Below the pieces are notes generated by a model. It was not told where the DNA came from and made no database searches. It saw only the letters and a list, made by a program, of their open reading frames with translations. The position numbers and the translations under genes were made by a program. 54,411 nucleotides of DNA from an uncultured Pseudomonadota bacterium (GTDB lineage Bacteria; Pseudomonadota; Alphaproteobacteria; UBA9219): contig CAIXHP010000058.1 in assembly GCA_903919315.1 (NCBI GenBank), positions 1 to 54,411 on the forward strand, written 5' to 3'. Below are positions 708 through 53,244 of this stretch, one piece after another. Position 1 is the stretch's first letter; the number at the start of each line of letters is the position of its first letter.

Positions 708-785
708 CGTCACACCCGCATAGGCGGGTGTCCCATTGTTTTGTTGTTGAATAGAGACTGGATTCCCGCTTTCGCGGGAATGACG
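708..785. repeat. Two-hairpin dispersed repeat, locus A
   Basis: CGTCA, a hairpin (CACCCGC / GCGGGTG), TCC, a spacer, GGA, a second hairpin (TTCCCGC / GCGGGAA) and TGACG. The two hairpins face each other in inverted orientation, so the whole unit is also bounded by CGTCA...TGACG. The same architecture with different stem bases recurs at 35518, 41307 and 46664. It resembles the REP/BIME-like palindromic elements of proteobacteria. Confidence 0.75.
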
Positions 786-3924: not shown

Positions 3925-4008
3925 TGCGGAGGATTTCGTTAAGCGCGGTGGGATTCCCTCCCCACGAGGGGGAGGGAATCGCTGTGGCGGCTTTTTGGGG
4001 CCAGCTTG
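3925..4008. repeat. C/G-rich inverted-repeat element, locus 1 (internally deleted copy)
   Basis: The core at 3952-3980 is a hairpin, GATTCCCTCCCC / GGGGAGGGAATC with an ACGA loop. The left flank (TTTCGTTAAGCGCGGT then GGATTCCC) and the right flank (GGGAATCGCT...CTTG) match the flanks of the full element at 52995-53215. Locus 1 therefore looks like the same element without its roughly 130-base centre. Confidence 0.65.
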
Positions 4009-12055: not shown

Positions 12056-15000
12056 ATGTTCTCATCCGATCGATCCTCAATGCGTTGGCTGGTTGGCGCT
12101 TTTGTCGCCATGCTGGTCGCTGTTTCCGCTGGCACCGCTCTGGCGCGGACGAGTGTGTCGTCGGCACCCCAGCCCTTCGCCGAATCTGTGAGCGATCCGA
12201 ATTCGCCCCCGGATCTGCCGGAGGGAATCACATGGGGTAAACCTCTGAAGGCGGGTGACCTGACGCTGCCCAAGCCGCCGAAGCCGAAGGCGGTGCGTCC
12301 TGCGCCGTCCGTGACCGCGCCCCAACTTCCTGTTGGCGGTTTGCAGGCACCCAAGATCACAACACATGCCGAGTCGCCGGTGCTCGCGCCCAAGTCCAGT
12401 TCCGCGAGCGTGATGTTGCTGCAAGGCATGAAGAACGCTTTGCAACAGTCGGGACAGAATCCCGACCTGCCGAAATCGGAAATCGTTCCGACGGTCGCGC
12501 CTTCGTCGTTGCAACCGCTTGCGCTGACTCCCAACCCGATGCCGTCTTCGTCCTATCAACCGGGGCAGGAGCCGCGTGATCTTGCTGCGGTGGTGGGCGG
12601 CGTGGCCGCTAAGGCGGAACCGGTGGCGACGGATGATAGCGAATCGGCTCCCGTACCCAAAGCGACGGAATTGACGCAGCCGCCTGTTCCTTTGGAGCAG
12701 GCCGCCAGCCCGACCGCTGAGTCCGGCGCGACGAGCAGTATTTTTGGCCCGGCGGTTGCTGAGGACGCTGGGGATGCCGCGCCAGAACCGATGAATCCGC
12801 CCGTTTCCACCGCCGTTGCCGCGAAAGACTGCGAGCCAAAGGTTGTGTCGTGGACGAAGGATTGCGCCGATGCGGGGTATCCCGACACCTTCACGGGCAA
12901 GATTTCTGGCGAGACGCGCAGTGTGTGTCCTGCGGGCGATGTGCAGGACGTTTGGTTGAGCAACACCTGTGCGCCTCCGGTTTCGGCGGCCGCGCCGACC
13001 GAAGAAAAGACAGAGTCGAAGCCTGCGGATGTTGCGCTAGAGCCTGAATCCGTTCTGTCGGCGGCTATGGCCGTGCCGGAGCGTAGGGATCGCGCCGAAC
13101 GTATGGATGCCCGCTGCGGCGCGGCCAATGGTTTGGCGGCGGCGAGCAAGCCTGTGGCTGATCTTTGCGCCGAAGGTTCTGTCGCGGATGTGTCCGGCGA
13201 CGGGCCGTGGCGTTGGAGTTGCCGTGGTATGAACGGCGGGATGACGGTCAGCTGCGCCGCTCCGCTTGCCAAGGCGAACGCGAAGGAATCAGCCAAGATT
13301 AAGGCGAACGTGGCCAAGCCTGCGCTCGCGATCGAAGACGGCAAGTGCGGCGTGGCGAACGGCGCGGGGCTGGATCAGATGCCGGAGCAGGGGCTTTGCG
13401 CCAAGGGAATCGCCAGCCGTGTCAACGGCGGCGGGCCGTGGACGTGGGCGTGTTCGGGCGTGAACGGCGGGAGCGCGGCGGCTTGCGGCGCGTCCAAGAA
13501 AATCGACGGCGCGTGCGGCTCGGCGGACAAAGTCGGCGTGGATTCCATGCCTCAACGCGATTTGTGCGTGGCGGGTTACGCCAGCGCGGTGACCGGCAAT
13601 GGGCCGTGGCAATGGACGTGCTCCGGCATTTCCGGCGGCACGGCGGCGACCTGCTCGGCCTCGACTCGCATCAACGCCGTTTGCGGCTCGGCCTCGCTGA
13701 CGGGCCATCGCGAGACTCCCATGGACGGGTTGTGCAACGCGGGCGAAGCTTCCAATATGGAGGGCGAGGGGCCGTGGCAGTGGACGTGTTCCGGTCTTGA
13801 CGGTGGCGCTTCCGTTTCGTGCAAGGCTCCGATGATGGTGGATGGTCAATGCGGTGCGTCCAACGGCGGCGGGTTTGAAAAGGCTCCGGCGGAGGATTTA
13901 TGCGCTCAAGGCCATTCCAGCCGCGTGACGGGGCTTGGGCCGTGGAACTGGACGTGTTCCGGTGAAGATGGCGGCAATACGGTCAGTTGCACGGCTTCTC
14001 TGGCGGCTCGTGAGGCCTCTGCGGTGAGCGGCTCGGCATCGGATTCCGCTTCGGTCGCCTGCGGTGCGGCCAGCGAAACGGTGACGTTTGCGGCTCCTGC
14101 TCAAAACCTGTGCGCGGGCGGCAAGGCCAGCGCGGTGTCCGGCGACGGGCCGTGGACGTGGAGCTGTTCGGACGACGCGGGAAGCAACGTGTCTTGCTCG
14201 ACCCTTCAGGCGACGGAAGGATCTTGCGGCAAGGCGGCGAATGTGCCGAGCGTCGAGGCTCCTGCGGCCAATCTGTGCGCTTCCGGCGCGCCGGGCGATG
14301 TGGTGAAGCGCGGCGACAAGGCCAATTGGTCGTGGGATTGCCGTGGATCGATGGGCGCGGCGACCGTGTCCTGCTCGGCTCCCGTGGGGCAGAGCGCGGC
14401 AGCGGCCAGCGCGGTTGATGATTTCAAGTGTGGTTTCGCGGCGGGACGCGGCGTGACGACGGCTCCGTCCGCCGACCTCTGCGACGCGGGCAAGCCCAGC
14501 GCTGTTCAGGGGCATGGCCCTTGGACATGGACATGCGGCGAAAAGAGCGCGCGCAAGGGTACGCGTAAAGTGTCGTGCGAGGCTCCCAAGATCGTTGACG
14601 GTGCCTGTGGCGCGGCCAACGGTTCGATACAAGCCGAAGCGCCTTTGTCCAGTCTCTGCGCCGCCGGAACGGCGACGCCGATCGACGGCAACGGCCCGTG
14701 GCAATGGAGCTGCGTCGGTGTGGCGGGGGGAGGTAGTTCCAGCTGCTCCGCTTCCGCCCAATCGCAGACGCGCGTCGACGGAACGTGCGGCGCGGCGGCC
14801 AATGCGGTGATGACTTCGACACCCGACGCCAATTTGTGCGACAGTGGCACGGCCAGCACCGTTTACGGCGATGGCCCGTGGACATGGACATGCTCTGGCA
14901 TGAACGGCGGCATTGCCAGCACTTGCACGACATCGAAGGTGATGCCCAAGGCACCACCGCCTCCGGGCCCGGCCGTGAACGGCAATTGCGGCCCCTCGAA

Positions 15001-16012
15001 CGGCGTGGCGGCGGTTGATGAGCCGGTCGAAGGACTCTGCACTTCGGGAACCGTGACATCGGTGAGCGGCCAAGGGCCGTGGAACTGGAATTGCCTCGGC
15101 GCGAACGGTGGTATGACGGTCAGCTGCACCGCGCCGCTTATGCCTCCGGCTCCGATTGTCGGCGTGTGCGGCGTGGCCAACGGTGTCAGCACGTTGACGA
15201 CTCCGCGCAGCGGTCTTTGCTCCGCCGGTATCTCCAGCGCCGTCAACGGCAAGGGGCCGTGGACGTGGAGCTGCTCGGGCACCAACGGCGGGGGCGCGGT
15301 CAGCTGCGTCGCGCCTTTGGCGGGTAAAGGCGCAAGCGCTGCGCCGCTGCCTTCGATGGTCACGCCATCCAACGCGGCGAACGACGATGAGGCTCCGGCT
15401 CCGATGGCGGCTCCCAGCACGTTGGTGACACCGCGTTTGTCGTCGGGCGCTTTGGCTCCCCTTGAAAAAGGTGCGATGCCGAAGTTGAAGCCATCCAAGC
15501 CGCTTTCACTCAACGAGAGCGCACCGCCGGTGGTTGATATGTCGGACGCTGTTGCTCCTCCGGCTGTCCCCCCCGGCTTGCCTGACGATGCCGAGCCGTT
15601 GTTGCCGCCGCCTTTGCGCGACACGGTCAACCCTTCGCCTTCGCTCAAGCCACCGGCCATTGATTCCGAGGGCAAGCCGATTGCGGCAGCGCGGCTGGAA
15701 CTTGACGACGATCTTTCCACCATCGCATTCACGCGAGGATCCGATGTGATTGAACGCGATGCCTTGGCGCAGTTGGACAAGCTGGCGGGTGTGATGAAGA
15801 CCCACGGCAACGCGCGGATCACGCTCACGGCCTATGCCGACAACAGCACGATCACGCCGCGCGAGGCGCGTCGTTTATCGCTGTCGCGGGCGTTGGCGTT
15901 GCGCGACTACCTCACCACCAAGGGCATCGCCAGCGGGCGCATTGATGTTCGCGCGCTCGGCGCGAACGTGCCCAGCGGCGACATGGATCGCGTGGATGTG
16001 AAGGTCAACTGA
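12056..16012 (+). CDS. Giant secreted protein: 12 Cys/Trp repeats and a C-terminal OmpA-like domain
   Basis: 1318 residues. A signal peptide ends ALA|RT near residue 31 (the ATG at 12080 would also keep it). Residues about 32-340 are Pro/Ala/Ser-rich. About 13110-15320 encodes 12 tandem units of roughly 50-65 residues built as CGxANG ... LCxxG ... GxGPWxWxCxGxNGG ... CxA, with four Cys each. A Pro-rich linker follows. The last 100 residues are an OmpA-like peptidoglycan-binding domain; YADNSTITPREARRLSLSRA holds the Asp and Arg that bind diaminopimelate. It is probably exported, attached to peptidoglycan and stabilised by disulfides; adhesion or a structural role is inference. Unit 7 lacks the GPW motif and unit 8 lacks the NGG motif. 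Confidence 0.85.
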   Translation: MFSSDRSSMRWLVGAFVAMLVAVSAGTALARTSVSSAPQPFAESVSDPNSPPDLPEGITWGKPLKAGDLTLPKPPKPKAVRPAPSVTAPQLPVGGLQAPKITTHAESPVLAPKSSSASVMLLQGMKNALQQSGQNPDLPKSEIVPTVAPSSLQPLALTPNPMPSSSYQPGQEPRDLAAVVGGVAAKAEPVATDDSESAPVPKATELTQPPVPLEQAASPTAESGATSSIFGPAVAEDAGDAAPEPMNPPVSTAVAAKDCEPKVVSWTKDCADAGYPDTFTGKISGETRSVCPAGDVQDVWLSNTCAPPVSAAAPTEEKTESKPADVALEPESVLSAAMAVPERRDRAERMDARCGAANGLAAASKPVADLCAEGSVADVSGDGPWRWSCRGMNGGMTVSCAAPLAKANAKESAKIKANVAKPALAIEDGKCGVANGAGLDQMPEQGLCAKGIASRVNGGGPWTWACSGVNGGSAAACGASKKIDGACGSADKVGVDSMPQRDLCVAGYASAVTGNGPWQWTCSGISGGTAATCSASTRINAVCGSASLTGHRETPMDGLCNAGEASNMEGEGPWQWTCSGLDGGASVSCKAPMMVDGQCGASNGGGFEKAPAEDLCAQGHSSRVTGLGPWNWTCSGEDGGNTVSCTASLAAREASAVSGSASDSASVACGAASETVTFAAPAQNLCAGGKASAVSGDGPWTWSCSDDAGSNVSCSTLQATEGSCGKAANVPSVEAPAANLCASGAPGDVVKRGDKANWSWDCRGSMGAATVSCSAPVGQSAAAASAVDDFKCGFAAGRGVTTAPSADLCDAGKPSAVQGHGPWTWTCGEKSARKGTRKVSCEAPKIVDGACGAANGSIQAEAPLSSLCAAGTATPIDGNGPWQWSCVGVAGGGSSSCSASAQSQTRVDGTCGAAANAVMTSTPDANLCDSGTASTVYGDGPWTWTCSGMNGGIASTCTTSKVMPKAPPPPGPAVNGNCGPSNGVAAVDEPVEGLCTSGTVTSVSGQGPWNWNCLGANGGMTVSCTAPLMPPAPIVGVCGVANGVSTLTTPRSGLCSAGISSAVNGKGPWTWSCSGTNGGGAVSCVAPLAGKGASAAPLPSMVTPSNAANDDEAPAPMAAPSTLVTPRLSSGALAPLEKGAMPKLKPSKPLSLNESAPPVVDMSDAVAPPAVPPGLPDDAEPLLPPPLRDTVNPSPSLKPPAIDSEGKPIAAARLELDDDLSTIAFTRGSDVIERDALAQLDKLAGVMKTHGNARITLTAYADNSTITPREARRLSLSRALALRDYLTTKGIASGRIDVRALGANVPSGDMDRVDVKVN

Positions 16013-21748: not shown

Positions 21749-21749
<1 letters not shown>
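20280..21749 (+). CDS. tRNA-dependent cyclodipeptide synthase fused to a family 3 solute-binding domain
   Basis: 489 residues in one uninterrupted frame. Residues about 15-225 match cyclodipeptide synthases, which use two aminoacyl-tRNAs to make cyclic dipeptides. The catalytic-serine motif is IIGMSPGNSYF with Ser23; Asn26 is the Asn three positions later, as in the NYQ subgroup. ADIPAIATYMALGY, a basic stretch (70-90, tRNA contact) and HYLLSELAF follow, where Tyr164 and Glu168 keep the AlbC Y178/E182 spacing. CYLYHRNWP (Tyr188) corresponds to the AlbC Y202 region. Residues about 247-470 resemble amino-acid SBPs: ILRASFVDYPPAIQ, then IEWVEETGYGAVIAGLEEGRFDIFCS. No signal peptide, so the SBP domain should be cytosolic. 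GC is well below that of its neighbour (60-base samples counted: 53% and 40%). M13 (20316) is an alternative start. Confidence 0.87.
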
Positions 21750-25681
<3,932 letters not shown>

Positions 25682-35517: not shown

Positions 35518-35632
35518 GTCATGCTCGCGAAGGCGAGCATCCATCTCCCGGTGGAGCCATAAGCGCACAGTCTCGTAACCCAGCACGAACGTCGCCGACT
35601 GGTGATGGATCGCCGCCTTCGCGGCGATGACG
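35518..35632. repeat. Two-hairpin dispersed repeat, locus B
   Basis: GTCATGCTCGC-GAAG-GCGAGCATCC at the left and GGATCGCCGC-CTTC-GCGGCGATGACG at the right, in inverted orientation about 60 bases apart. The stems differ from those of locus C at several positions but remain paired. Fills the gap between the carbonic anhydrase and phaC, which converge here. Confidence 0.75.
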
Positions 35633-40282: not shown

Positions 40283-41263
40283 ATGCGTGTCGGTGATGCC
40301 TATATGGATCGCAATCTGGCCTTGGAACTCGCGCGCGTGAGCGAGGCGGCGGCGCTATCGGCGTCGTTGCAGGTCGGGCGCGGCAATGAAAAAGAAGCCG
40401 ATCAAGTGGCGGTAAACGCCATGCGCAAGGCTTTGAACGTTCTCGACATCGACGGCACCGTCGTCATCGGCGAGGGCGAGCGCGACGAAGCGCCCATGCT
40501 TTTTATCGGCGAGAAAGTCGGAACCTGTAAAGGGCCAAAGGTTGACATCGCGCTGGATCCTTTGGAAGGCACAACGATCACCGCGACCGGCGGCCCGAAC
40601 GCTCTGGCCGTCGTGGCGATGGCGGAGGCGGGCGGCTTTCTTCATGCGCCGGACGTGTATATGGAAAAAATCGCCGTGGGCGTGGGCTTGCCGGACAATC
40701 TGATCGACCTCGATGTGCCAGTGGCCGAAAATCTGAAAAATCTCGCCAAGGCAAAGGGCGCGGAGCTGTCCGATTTGCAGGTCTGCATTCTGGAACGTCC
40801 TCGCCACCAAGAGCTGATCGCGCGTGTGCGCGAAACGGGCGCGCGCATCATGCTGATCGGCGACGGCGATGTTTCGGGCGTGATCGCGACATCGCAGCCG
40901 GAAAGCGGCGTGGATATGTATATCGGCACCGGCGGCGCGCCTGAAGGCGTGTTGGCGGCCGCCGCGTTGCAATGCATCGGCGGGCAGATGCAGGGTCGTT
41001 TGGTGTTCCGCAACGACGATGAAAAAGCCCGCGCGGCGCGGGCTGGCATCACCGATCTGGCGCGTAAATACAGCATGGATGATTTGGCCCATGGCGACGT
41101 GATGTTCGCGGCCACCGGCGTGACCAACGGCGCGATGCTGAAGGGCGTGCGGCGGTTTGCGGGCGGAGCCATGACCCACACCGTCGTCATGAGGGCCAAG
41201 ACCGGCACTGTGCGCTACATCGAAGCGCACCACAATTTCCGCCGGAAGCCGCTTGTCTTCTGA
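40283..41263 (+). CDS. glpX: Class II fructose-1,6-bisphosphatase
   Basis: 326 residues. Converts fructose-1,6-bisphosphate to fructose-6-phosphate in gluconeogenesis. Metal-site motifs: VVIGEGERDEAPM, DIALDPLEGTTITATGG and GDGDVSGVIAT; C-terminal TGTVRYIEAHHNF fits GlpX. GGGAG lies about 8 bases before the ATG. Follows hom by 15 bases. Confidence 0.96.
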   Translation: MRVGDAYMDRNLALELARVSEAAALSASLQVGRGNEKEADQVAVNAMRKALNVLDIDGTVVIGEGERDEAPMLFIGEKVGTCKGPKVDIALDPLEGTTITATGGPNALAVVAMAEAGGFLHAPDVYMEKIAVGVGLPDNLIDLDVPVAENLKNLAKAKGAELSDLQVCILERPRHQELIARVRETGARIMLIGDGDVSGVIATSQPESGVDMYIGTGGAPEGVLAAAALQCIGGQMQGRLVFRNDDEKARAARAGITDLARKYSMDDLAHGDVMFAATGVTNGAMLKGVRRFAGGAMTHTVVMRAKTGTVRYIEAHHNFRRKPLVF

Positions 41264-41306
41264 GTGTTCGTCCGGAAACTTAGAAAGCAATAACAACCGT
41301 AAAAAA

Positions 41307-41421
41307 GGTCATCCCCGCGAAGGCGGGGATCCATCACCGGGTGATAGGATTGAGCGCAATTTTTACAGACCGACGCTTTTCGTTCAACAGGAGATGGATC
41401 CCCGCCTTCGCGGGGATGACC
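41307..41421. repeat. Two-hairpin dispersed repeat, locus C
   Basis: GGTCATCCCCGC-GAAG-GCGGGGATCC at the left and GGATCCCCGC-CTTC-GCGGGGATGACC at the right, in exact inverted orientation; outer bases GGTCAT...ATGACC also pair. The cleanest copy of the family. It lies between glpX and recJ and may shape their mRNA junction. Confidence 0.82.
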
Positions 41422-41477
41422 ATTCCCTTTATTAATCGTTGTGAACAAACGACAAGTCTCTGGACAGACACGAAGTG

Positions 41478-43244
41478 ATGACCGCCCCGTTCCTTGGCGT
41501 TGAGCGATCTTTTACCGGCAAACGCTGGGTGACGCGGGCTTGTGACGAGCGCATGGCAGAGGCTTTGGCGCAGCGTTACACGCTGCCCGACCTGATGGCG
41601 CGGAGTCTCAGCGCCCGGGGGCTTGATTTGGAAACCACGCCTTCGTTCCTTGATCCGCGTTTGCGTAATTTGATGCCCGACCCCAGCCGGTTCAAGGATA
41701 TGGATTGCGCGGCGGCGCGGATGGCCGAAGCCGTCCAGCGGGGCGAGAGCGTCGCGGTGTTCGGCGATTATGACGTGGACGGCGGCACGTCGTCGGCGCT
41801 GCTGCTGCGCTTTGGCCGCGCCGTCGGGATTGAACTGCGGCTTTACATCCCCGACCGGATCACGGAGGGCTATGGCCCCAACGCGGCGGCCATGCGGACG
41901 CTGGCGGCGGAGGGTGTCCGGCTTGTGGTCTGCGTCGATTGCGGCACCACGGCGCACGAGCCTTTGGCGGCGGCGCGTGACGCGGGGCTTGAGGTCATCA
42001 TTCTCGACCATCACACGGCGGAGCCGGTCTTGCCGTTCGCCTATGCGGTCGTGAATCCCAATCGGTTGGATGAAGATATGGGCGCGGCCTATGGTTCATT
42101 GGCCGCCGTGGGCGTGACGTATCTGTTCGTCGTGGCGGTCAACCGCTCGTTGCGGGCGGCGGGGTGGTACGGCGCGGCGCGGGCTGAGCCGGATTTGCGC
42201 GAATGGCTCGATCTGGTGGCGCTCGGCACCGTGTGCGATGTGGTGAAATTGACGGGGCTGAACCGCGCCTTTGTCACGCAAGGGCTCAAGATCATGGAGC
42301 AGCGCCACAACGTCGGGATCGCGGCGTTGGCGCGTGCGGCGGGCGTGAAAGCCGCCATGGACACTTATGCGGCGGGCTTCCTGTTGGGGCCGCGCGTGAA
42401 CGCGGGCGGTCGCATCGGCCAAGCCGATCTTGGCGCGAAGTTGTTGTCCACGGACGACGCAGATTATGCAGTGGGTCTGGCGGAAAGGCTGAACGGCTAC
42501 AACACCGAGCGCCGCGCGATTGAAGCGCAGGTCTTGGCTGAGGCCGAGGCTTTAGTTTTTGAAGGCGATGCGCCGCTTGTGTTTGCCGCCAGCGAGAACT
42601 GGCATCCGGGCGTGATCGGGATCGTCGCGTCGCGGCTCAAGGAGAAATACCACCGTCCGGCCATCGTCGTGGCGTTGGACGGCGACGTGGGCAAGGGGTC
42701 GGGGCGTTCGATCGGGAATGTCGATCTGGGCGCGGCGGTCATCGCGGCGCGGCAGGCGGGGTTGCTCATCAACGGCGGCGGTCACAAGATGGCGGCGGGC
42801 TTGACGGTAGCCCGCGACGGCGTGGAAGCGTTGCGCGTTTTCCTGAACGAGCGCATCGGCAAGCAGCTGGAGGCCGAGCCTTTGCAACCGACGCTCACGC
42901 TGGACGGCTTGATTTCCGGAGCGGGTGCGCAGGTGGATTTTGTCGATAAACTGGCCGCGCTGGGTCCGTTCGGCACCGGCAATCCTGAGCCGCGTTTCGC
43001 GCTGGCGGATTGCCGCGTCGTCCGCGCCGATGTGGTCGGCGAAAAGCATGTCAGCGTGATTTTGATGAACGGCGCGGCGCGTTTGCGCGGCATCGCCTTT
43101 CGCGCGATGGACAGCGATCTCGGCCCGGCTTTGCTCAGTCTAGGTTCACGGCCTTGCCACGTCGCGGGCTTCCTTCGCTGTGACGAATGGAATGGAACGC
43201 GACGGGTTCAGCTTCTTGTGAGCGACGCGAGTTCCGGCGGGTAG
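41478..43244 (+). CDS. recJ: Single-stranded-DNA-specific exonuclease RecJ
   Basis: 588 residues. 5'-3' exonuclease for recombination and mismatch repair. DHH-family motifs: VAVFGDYDVDGGTSSALLL (motif I), VVCVDCGTT, EVIILDHHTAE (DHH) and, in the DHHA1 domain, INGGGHKMAAG. The C-terminal OB domain includes LGPFGTGNPEPRF. GTG at 41475 directly precedes the ATG used. Confidence 0.96.
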   Translation: MTAPFLGVERSFTGKRWVTRACDERMAEALAQRYTLPDLMARSLSARGLDLETTPSFLDPRLRNLMPDPSRFKDMDCAAARMAEAVQRGESVAVFGDYDVDGGTSSALLLRFGRAVGIELRLYIPDRITEGYGPNAAAMRTLAAEGVRLVVCVDCGTTAHEPLAAARDAGLEVIILDHHTAEPVLPFAYAVVNPNRLDEDMGAAYGSLAAVGVTYLFVVAVNRSLRAAGWYGAARAEPDLREWLDLVALGTVCDVVKLTGLNRAFVTQGLKIMEQRHNVGIAALARAAGVKAAMDTYAAGFLLGPRVNAGGRIGQADLGAKLLSTDDADYAVGLAERLNGYNTERRAIEAQVLAEAEALVFEGDAPLVFAASENWHPGVIGIVASRLKEKYHRPAIVVALDGDVGKGSGRSIGNVDLGAAVIAARQAGLLINGGGHKMAAGLTVARDGVEALRVFLNERIGKQLEAEPLQPTLTLDGLISGAGAQVDFVDKLAALGPFGTGNPEPRFALADCRVVRADVVGEKHVSVILMNGAARLRGIAFRAMDSDLGPALLSLGSRPCHVAGFLRCDEWNGTRRVQLLVSDASSGG

Positions 43245-46663: not shown

Positions 46664-46832
46664 TTTCCTTCTCGCGAAAGCGGAATGACATTAGAGTCTT
46701 GGCCTTGGCGGCGCTTACAGGAGATGGGCCCCCGCCTTCGCGGGGGCGACGCGGTTCTTAGGGTATAGATGCGTGGTGTGGAGCCGTGTGTTTTCCCTCC
46801 GCGTCATGCCCGCGCAGGCGGGCATCCATCAC
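46664..46832. repeat. Dispersed hairpin repeat cluster, locus D
   Basis: Three related hairpins. TTCTCGC-GAAA-GCGGAATGAC at 46672-46689 is degenerate. GGGCCCCCGC-CTTC-GCGGGGGCGACG lies near 46726-46752. GCGTCATGCCCGC-GCAG-GCGGGCATCC lies near 46801-46826. Same family as loci A-C, partly decayed or rearranged. Confidence 0.65.
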
Positions 46833-52943: not shown

Positions 52944-53244
52944 AGACTTCTTTTGTGGGATACGTAAACCCCGCAACTTTAGCCGGTTGGGATAGCGGAG
53001 AGTTTCGTTAAGCGCGGTAGGATTCCCTCCCCCTCGTGGGGAGGGTTAGGGAGGGGGAGAACGACTGGGCATGGTGTGTTGATATTGTAACGAAATAACG
53101 GCTATGGACTTTCTCTTTCGCCCCAACATTTCGCTTGCGGACCTCCCCCCTCCCTAACCCTCCCCACGAGGGGGAGGGAATCGCTCTGTCGGCCCGCTTG
53201 GGCCGACTTGATCCGGCTTTAGCCGATGGTCGTTCATGCGACCG
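52944..53244. other. Gene-free gap with repeat element
   Basis: About 300 bases between convergent genes. Apart from the inverted-repeat element at 52995-53215, I see no gene. Confidence 0.6.
52995..53215. repeat. C/G-rich inverted-repeat element, locus 3
   Basis: Arms at 53021-53057 and 53145-53182 are inverted copies (GATTCCCTCCCCCTCGTGGG, then GAGGGTTAGGGAGGGGG, and the reverse). The flanks, TTTCGTTAAGCGCGGT at the left and GGGAATCGCT...GACTTG at the right, are shared with locus 1. The centre (about 85 bases) differs from that of locus 2. Confidence 0.75.

Follow-up and report, generated by a model that had tools for sequence, protein, structure and literature searches.

A CGTC-1 REP pair at the core of a MITE-like element with IS5-type ends between glpX and recJ in an uncultured alphaproteobacterium

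Introduction

In the passages of Di Nocera et al. (2013, PMC3733652) that deal with them, CGTC-1 REPs are alphaproteobacterial units with a CGTC tag (variants TGTC and CCTC), an 8-bp stem starting with AT, a 4-nt loop and a CCA tail, which form head-to-head pairs with no adjoining transposase, tail-to-tail dimers being rare. These passages equate them with Neisseria dRS3, place all CGTC-1 pairs of H. neapolitanus inside a 41-bp palindrome, and leave the mobiliser of the repeats open. A MITE that carries a REP is also already known, namely QMITE2 of Coxiella burnetii, for which the relevant sections give a GTAG REP and direct repeats of 7-11 nt (PMC5896051; review PMC10969869). Inverted REP pairs are moreover the repeated unit of REPIN/RAYT systems, which are marked by a GTAG tag and by a RAYT gene in the genome. 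BIMEs of the E. coli type are characterised by gyrase or IHF binding and by an effect on mRNA. Among insertion sequences, TNA targets are typical of the IS1031 subgroup of the IS5 family. In the open-licence literature we found no account of a CGTC pair as the core of a MITE, and in PMC12306157 and PMC6006769 the term CGTC occurs in the reference lists only.

Here we describe a CGTC-1 pair from an uncultured Pseudomonadota bacterium (UBA9219; assembly GCA_903919315.1), located in a stretch of 54,411 nt of contig CAIXHP010000058.1 that is referred to as the window. The novelty lies in its setting, as the pair forms the core of a MITE of 208 bp with ends matching those of an IS5-family insertion sequence.

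Results

The focal pair, at locus C (41308-41420), comprises two 26-nt units facing each other head-to-head as a homodimer with a span of 113, each unit reading GTC, an 8-bp stem, a 4-nt loop, the return stem and CCA, and both stems (ATCCCCGC+ATCCCCGC) being perfectly complementary over their 8 bp (Table 1). By this plan, the paired hairpins are CGTC-1 REPs. A common hairpin plan had been claimed for four loci of the window; it holds at A, B and C, with perfectly complementary 8-bp stems whose letters at A and B are unlike those of locus C, but fails at D, a decayed cluster with another arrangement. There, a decayed hairpin lacking GTCA stands alone near 46668, and the minus-strand unit reads GTCGCC, with the plus-strand end being GCGAC and not TGAC.

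Table 1. Features of the window that bear on the focal REP pair, with strand (a point where none applies).
Feature	Position	Strand	Details
glpX (fructose-1,6-bisphosphatase)	40283..41263	+	Upstream neighbour; PF03320, 458.6 bits
glpX stop codon TGA	41261..41263	+	TNA trinucleotide adjoining alpha
Alpha element	41264..41471	.	208-bp MITE with REP pair; fills the glpX-recJ gap
Alpha left terminal inverted repeat	41264..41281	+	GTGTTCGTCCGGAAACTT; 1 mismatch to GTGTCYGTCYRGAAACTT
Left CGTC-1 REP unit, locus C	41308..41333	+	Stem ATCCCCGC/GCGGGGAT, loop GAAG, tail CCA, tag GGTC
Inner spacer of locus C pair	41334..41394	.	
Right CGTC-1 REP unit, locus C	41395..41420	-	Stem identical to left unit; tag GGTC
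Alpha right terminal inverted repeat	41454..41471	-	GTGTCTGTCCAGAGACTT; 1 mismatch
recJ	41475..43244	+	Downstream neighbour; DHH, DHHA1, RecJ_OB
Locus A	709..784	.	GTC-hairpin...hairpin-GAC heterodimer, ACACCCGC / ATTCCCGC, span 76
Locus B	35518..35631	.	GTC-hairpin...hairpin-GAC heterodimer, ATGCTCGC / ATCGCCGC, span 114; without alpha ends
Locus D REP unit	46725..46750	-	Altered stem GCCCCCGC/GCGGGGGC
Locus D REP unit	46803..46828	+	ATGCCCGC/GCGGGCAT; tail-to-tail with the 46725-46750 unit

That such BIME-like pairs have copies genome-wide was confirmed with the pattern GTCATNCCCGCNNNNGCGGGNATCC, which at up to three mismatches occurs at 141 places of the 2.40-Mb genome (75 forward, 66 reverse), compared to none for the reversed pattern at the same threshold. 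The window and 40 further stretches of the same genome, together covering 96 of the 141 places, served as the sample. It contains 30 head-to-head and 17 tail-to-tail pairs, and this head-to-head majority, the many dispersed copies and the anatomy of the units (8-bp stem starting with AT, 4-nt loop and unpaired CCA tail, features that the scan itself favours) are those of CGTC-1 REPs. The head-to-head spans are discrete, with 113 or 114 in 20 of 30 pairs and 103 in four. Eleven of the 17 tail-to-tail pairs have a span of exactly 82 bp, a class with mostly CCC tails and, by eye, conserved arms of its own on either side; such dimers are thus common here, in contrast to the rarity stated for CGTC in the passages cited above (PMC3733652).

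Several arrangements in the collected loci are worth recording. GCTC/CGCC pairs stand in tandem with a period of 146-147 bp in one contig of the same genome (L050, G000:C23, locus positions 1092-1612), while in L041, L061 and L037 parts from separate REP pair classes are joined into hybrids, such as one in which a tail-to-tail element continues as half an alpha, which points to recombination at the hairpins. L063 and L150 each have a lone hairpin that is palindromic throughout, GTCATCCCCGC-loop-GCGGGGATGAC, and resembles a collapsed pair, and a CGTC pair of the Sphingopyxis indica plasmid pMC4 (L224) is annotated within ileS.

The original prediction further held that the stems differ in sequence while staying complementary, and the genome copies bear this out. 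Covariation was tested at the stem pair that the search pattern leaves free, to avoid choosing sites by their pairing; standard pairing is present there in 96 of 96 sampled places, as compared to a mean of 47 and a maximum of 61 in 10,000 shuffles. At the other stem positions of the same sample, two-sided changes are paired in 21/21 cases, and 11 of 15 one-sided changes are unpaired, eight of these at the outermost A-T pair. Among the matches listed for nine relatives, the free position pairs in 79 of 81 distinct 25-mers (within-genome duplicates dropped, and four self-complementary entries, which also pair, left out), and two-sided changes elsewhere in the stem restore pairing in 25 of 25 cases, next to 22 one-sided changes. 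The stem differences fall into discrete subfamilies, and independent compensations within the genome are therefore far fewer than the cells counted. Stem complementarity is kept, but in the form of subfamilies, and compensatory-stem counts of this kind are to be read with caution, blending old subfamilies with copies merely carried inside a MITE.

At locus C, the REP pair is the core of a larger MITE-like element, here called alpha, with terminal inverted repeats of about 18 bp. Alpha lies within the 70-300 bp of MITEs, lacks a transposase gene and is multicopy, its other copies in this genome having the REP pair at the equivalent place; what repeats at locus C is this 208-bp element and not, as originally assumed, the enclosed 115-bp pair. 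At a threshold of six mismatches and with a start 38-56 bp outside the pair, an alpha terminal repeat is found on at least one side of 13 of the 30 sampled head-to-head pairs, setting these apart from CGTC-1 REPs as described; the 13 include 11 of the 13 CCCC/CCCC pairs. The alpha end occurs at 12 places of the genome at one mismatch, against none in the reversed control, and at 27 against 11 at three mismatches, indicating that weak ends can be chance. The base before GTC is C in 58 of 98 units overall and G in both focal units (GGTC). The share with C is 4/26 for units of alpha pairs, versus 22/34 for other head-to-head pairs and 20/22 for tail-to-tail pairs of 82 bp, a difference that would fit a tag no longer needed in alpha pairs.

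The flanks of 14 alpha copies were compared, a set that includes the diverged L042 and also L046, the left end of which is probably not real, and omits L041, which has no left end. The adjoining 3 bp conform to TNA in 9/14 copies on the left and 9/14 on the right, with a chance level of about 1 in 16 given even bases, and an exact 3-bp target duplication is seen in 4/14, not beyond re-pairing (P=0.13); the focal copy is flanked by TGA and GAA. Alpha copies differ much from one another, a divergence strong enough to indicate that the element has not been recently active. L042 houses a different pair of 103 bp, and capture may thus not have been a single event. In plasmid and phage records, alpha has 39 plasmid matches and one phage match, none over 80% of its length and the best with a coverage of 29%, and the 103-bp pair has 11 plasmid matches, likewise none over 80%.

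Alpha starts immediately past the glpX stop codon and occupies nearly all of the 211-bp gap to recJ. The two genes stand in this order in 66 of 110 loci, including that of the window and with some genomes perhaps counted twice, and in 54 of the 65 other loci the gap is at most 78 bp. None of these 65, all of which were scanned, has a REP pair at the junction, and a Niveispirillum locus (L150) is the sole one with a lone collapsed CGTC hairpin. The nearest records for glpX are alphaproteobacterial MAGs, 81-82% identical, and there is no congener of the source genome among the relatives compared.

A link to the IS5 family comes from the element ends. In one genome, an alpha-like end, TAA followed by GTGTCCGTCCGGAGACTT, borders an IS5-family transposase; this single end (G039:C601) has a DUF4096 match of 102 bits inside, and the insertion sequence is cut by the contig end, with its other end outside the contig. 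Another genome (G112) has ten alpha-end copies, and the six of them that were viewed are all preceded by TAA or TTA and located at contig ends. Alpha shares with the DUF4096 elements the terminal repeat and the TNA flank, yet differs in carrying no transposase gene, and by its ends it has the appearance of an old element orphaned from an IS5-type parent. A search of its own genome for DUF4096, the one IS5 subgroup covered, returned no match; neither a full-length insertion sequence with alpha ends nor an inward-facing end pair 0.3-5 kb apart is present there, and the matches from 289 genomes of the class included no complete parental insertion sequence. A link between the numbers of DUF4096 genes and REPs in relatives was also considered, and dropped as no association was found.

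Azospirillum lipoferum has a second MITE-like element, about 200 bp long, which is bounded by CATAGGCGCT ends and has a CGTC pair at its centre; three copies were viewed (on p5, p1 and p6; a further p5 match lies outside the viewed set). On plasmid p5 of strain 4B, 56 bp separate the pair from each GGCGCT end of the insert, which A. ramasamyi and A. oryzae lack at their orthologous sites. The same arms surround CGTC pairs on p1 and p6, and the p1 copy has in turn inserted into a CGTC palindrome. By eye, one of the three copies is flanked by an exact repeat, CGCG, and one copy has an extra base at the right end; a TA target was dropped since the terminal repeat starts CATAGGCGCT. A second Azospirillum locus (L221) exceeds its relatives in length by about 147 bp, with blurred boundaries. 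In the relative G026, a shared long arm, queried with a sequence read off the flanks of these same loci, borders a GCCC-type REP unit in 9/14 loci, each above all 200 shuffles, and is inverted on both sides in L236 only.

Pairs with no such carrier are also present. By eye, the flanks of ten loci in G046 and ten in G020 are unrelated, and the outer ends shown have C ahead of GTC without exception in G020 and with two exceptions in G046, from which it follows that free-standing mobility exists too. Two free G020 pairs have flanks matching those of pair-less congeners, the exact boundary being hidden by 24-35% divergence. Some CGTC pairs are hence MITE cargo, and others, in the genome studied here, G020 and G046, are free-standing. 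At a gene junction where G020 holds a CGTC pair, its congeners G022 (L293) and G021 (L292) have other, unrelated-looking palindromes.

Discussion

We consider it likely that alpha was moved by its ends in trans, with the REP pair as cargo. An IS5-family (DDE) transposase would have mobilised alpha via its ends, and the pair would have travelled within the element; the enzyme is not found in the genome now. The complementarity of the stems may have lasted both because copying and repair of a palindrome yield a palindrome and because selection acted, prior to capture, on the folded form or on a REP-specific mobiliser. Free pairs, such as locus B and those viewed in G020 and G046, would move as units of their own, by a mechanism that does not track RAYT genes. 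Alpha resembles QMITE2, as characterised in the sections cited (PMC5896051), in its size and in being a MITE with a REP inside, and it differs by the CGTC pair in place of a GTAG REP, by TNA flanks in place of the longer direct repeats, and by its ends. Two MITE-like families with a central CGTC pair, from two alphaproteobacterial lineages, offer one concrete, testable mobilisation route. A broader proposal is that CGTC pairs, which have no known transposase of their own, spread between sites chiefly as the interchangeable core of unrelated MITEs that DDE transposases move, captured anew in separate lineages (alpha, the A. lipoferum family and perhaps G026). This proposal is tentative and on balance doubtful, although the G026 arms have raised our estimate slightly.

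Alternatively, palindromes might take up whole CGTC pairs at their centres, making alpha a ready-made palindromic target and not a carrier. The H. neapolitanus pairs would agree with this (PMC3733652, in the passages cited), as would the central position of the pair in both alpha and the Azospirillum element and the similar position of another pair type in L042; we nonetheless judge it unlikely, as the palindromic match between the flanks of 14 free pairs does not exceed that of re-paired flanks (116/500 as good), no alpha arms without a REP were seen among the stretches fetched (lone end matches such as C20:24294 lie outside this set), and L063 is a collapsed single hairpin. A longer palindrome around free pairs was accordingly rejected as not above chance. 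Very improbable is also that the element is a functional RNA or DNA element, an mRNA stabiliser, attenuator or BIME-like gyrase site, kept for an effect on glpX-recJ. Its placement between two codirectional genes, a strong predicted transcript fold (-102.7 kcal/mol, z -11.6) and a left hairpin that is terminator-like on the minus strand by a consensus scan (5 in the region versus 2.0 expected) would suit such a role; against it, strong folding is common to any inverted repeat, the other junctions scanned lack the pair, copy numbers vary from 0 to 177 across relatives, and no Rfam family matches here.

A RAYT-driven REPIN, in which a REP-associated Y1 tyrosine transposase recognises the hairpins and moves the pair, had been proposed as well, and the inverted pairs, discrete spans and terminal tag are indeed REPIN-like, with two Y1 genes present in the genome. 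Both proteins are however of IS200/IS605 type, scoring 141 and 132 bits against a cut-off of 55; with the RAYT model they reach 33.7 and 26.4 bits and stay below its cut-off of 80. The GTAG tag is absent. The 2.1-kb loci around the Y1 genes, with flanks cut by contig ends, contain no CC-tailed unit, and a single weak stem match is found in L001. Across 59 genomes, one RAYT exceeds the cut-off, in G033, which has no CGTC REPs; weaker matches occur in 11 more genomes, including the one studied here. In favour of a RAYT are RAYT-like proteins just under the cut-off (58-70 bits) in three genomes, two of which, G022 (58) and G030 (70), are REP-rich, and the family and order subset, where 30 or more REPs are found in six of seven Y1 carriers (p=0.083), a tendency towards an association. 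Over all 58 relatives, 15 of which have Y1 genes, no association between Y1 presence and at least 30 REPs was detected (p=0.53), and nine genomes that are at least 90% complete hold 33-177 REPs with no Y1 match (G007, G009, G012, G020, G026, G027, G037, G042 and G046). We therefore rejected the RAYT association; the 59-genome survey speaks against RAYTs as mobilisers of CGTC REPs, and this explanation, largely refuted already, appears very improbable.

The window also contains further features. A palindromic repeat of the type CTCCCCCTCGTGGGGAGGGTTAGGGAGGGGG, unrelated to the CGTC REPs, is present at 21749-21914 and 53021-53182, with a related piece at 3941-3979, and has perfectly complementary arms of 39 and 37 nt, 88 nt apart. 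Additionally, a reading frame of 1318 aa at 12056-16012 comprises, by eye, about nine tandem units encoding GPWxWxC.
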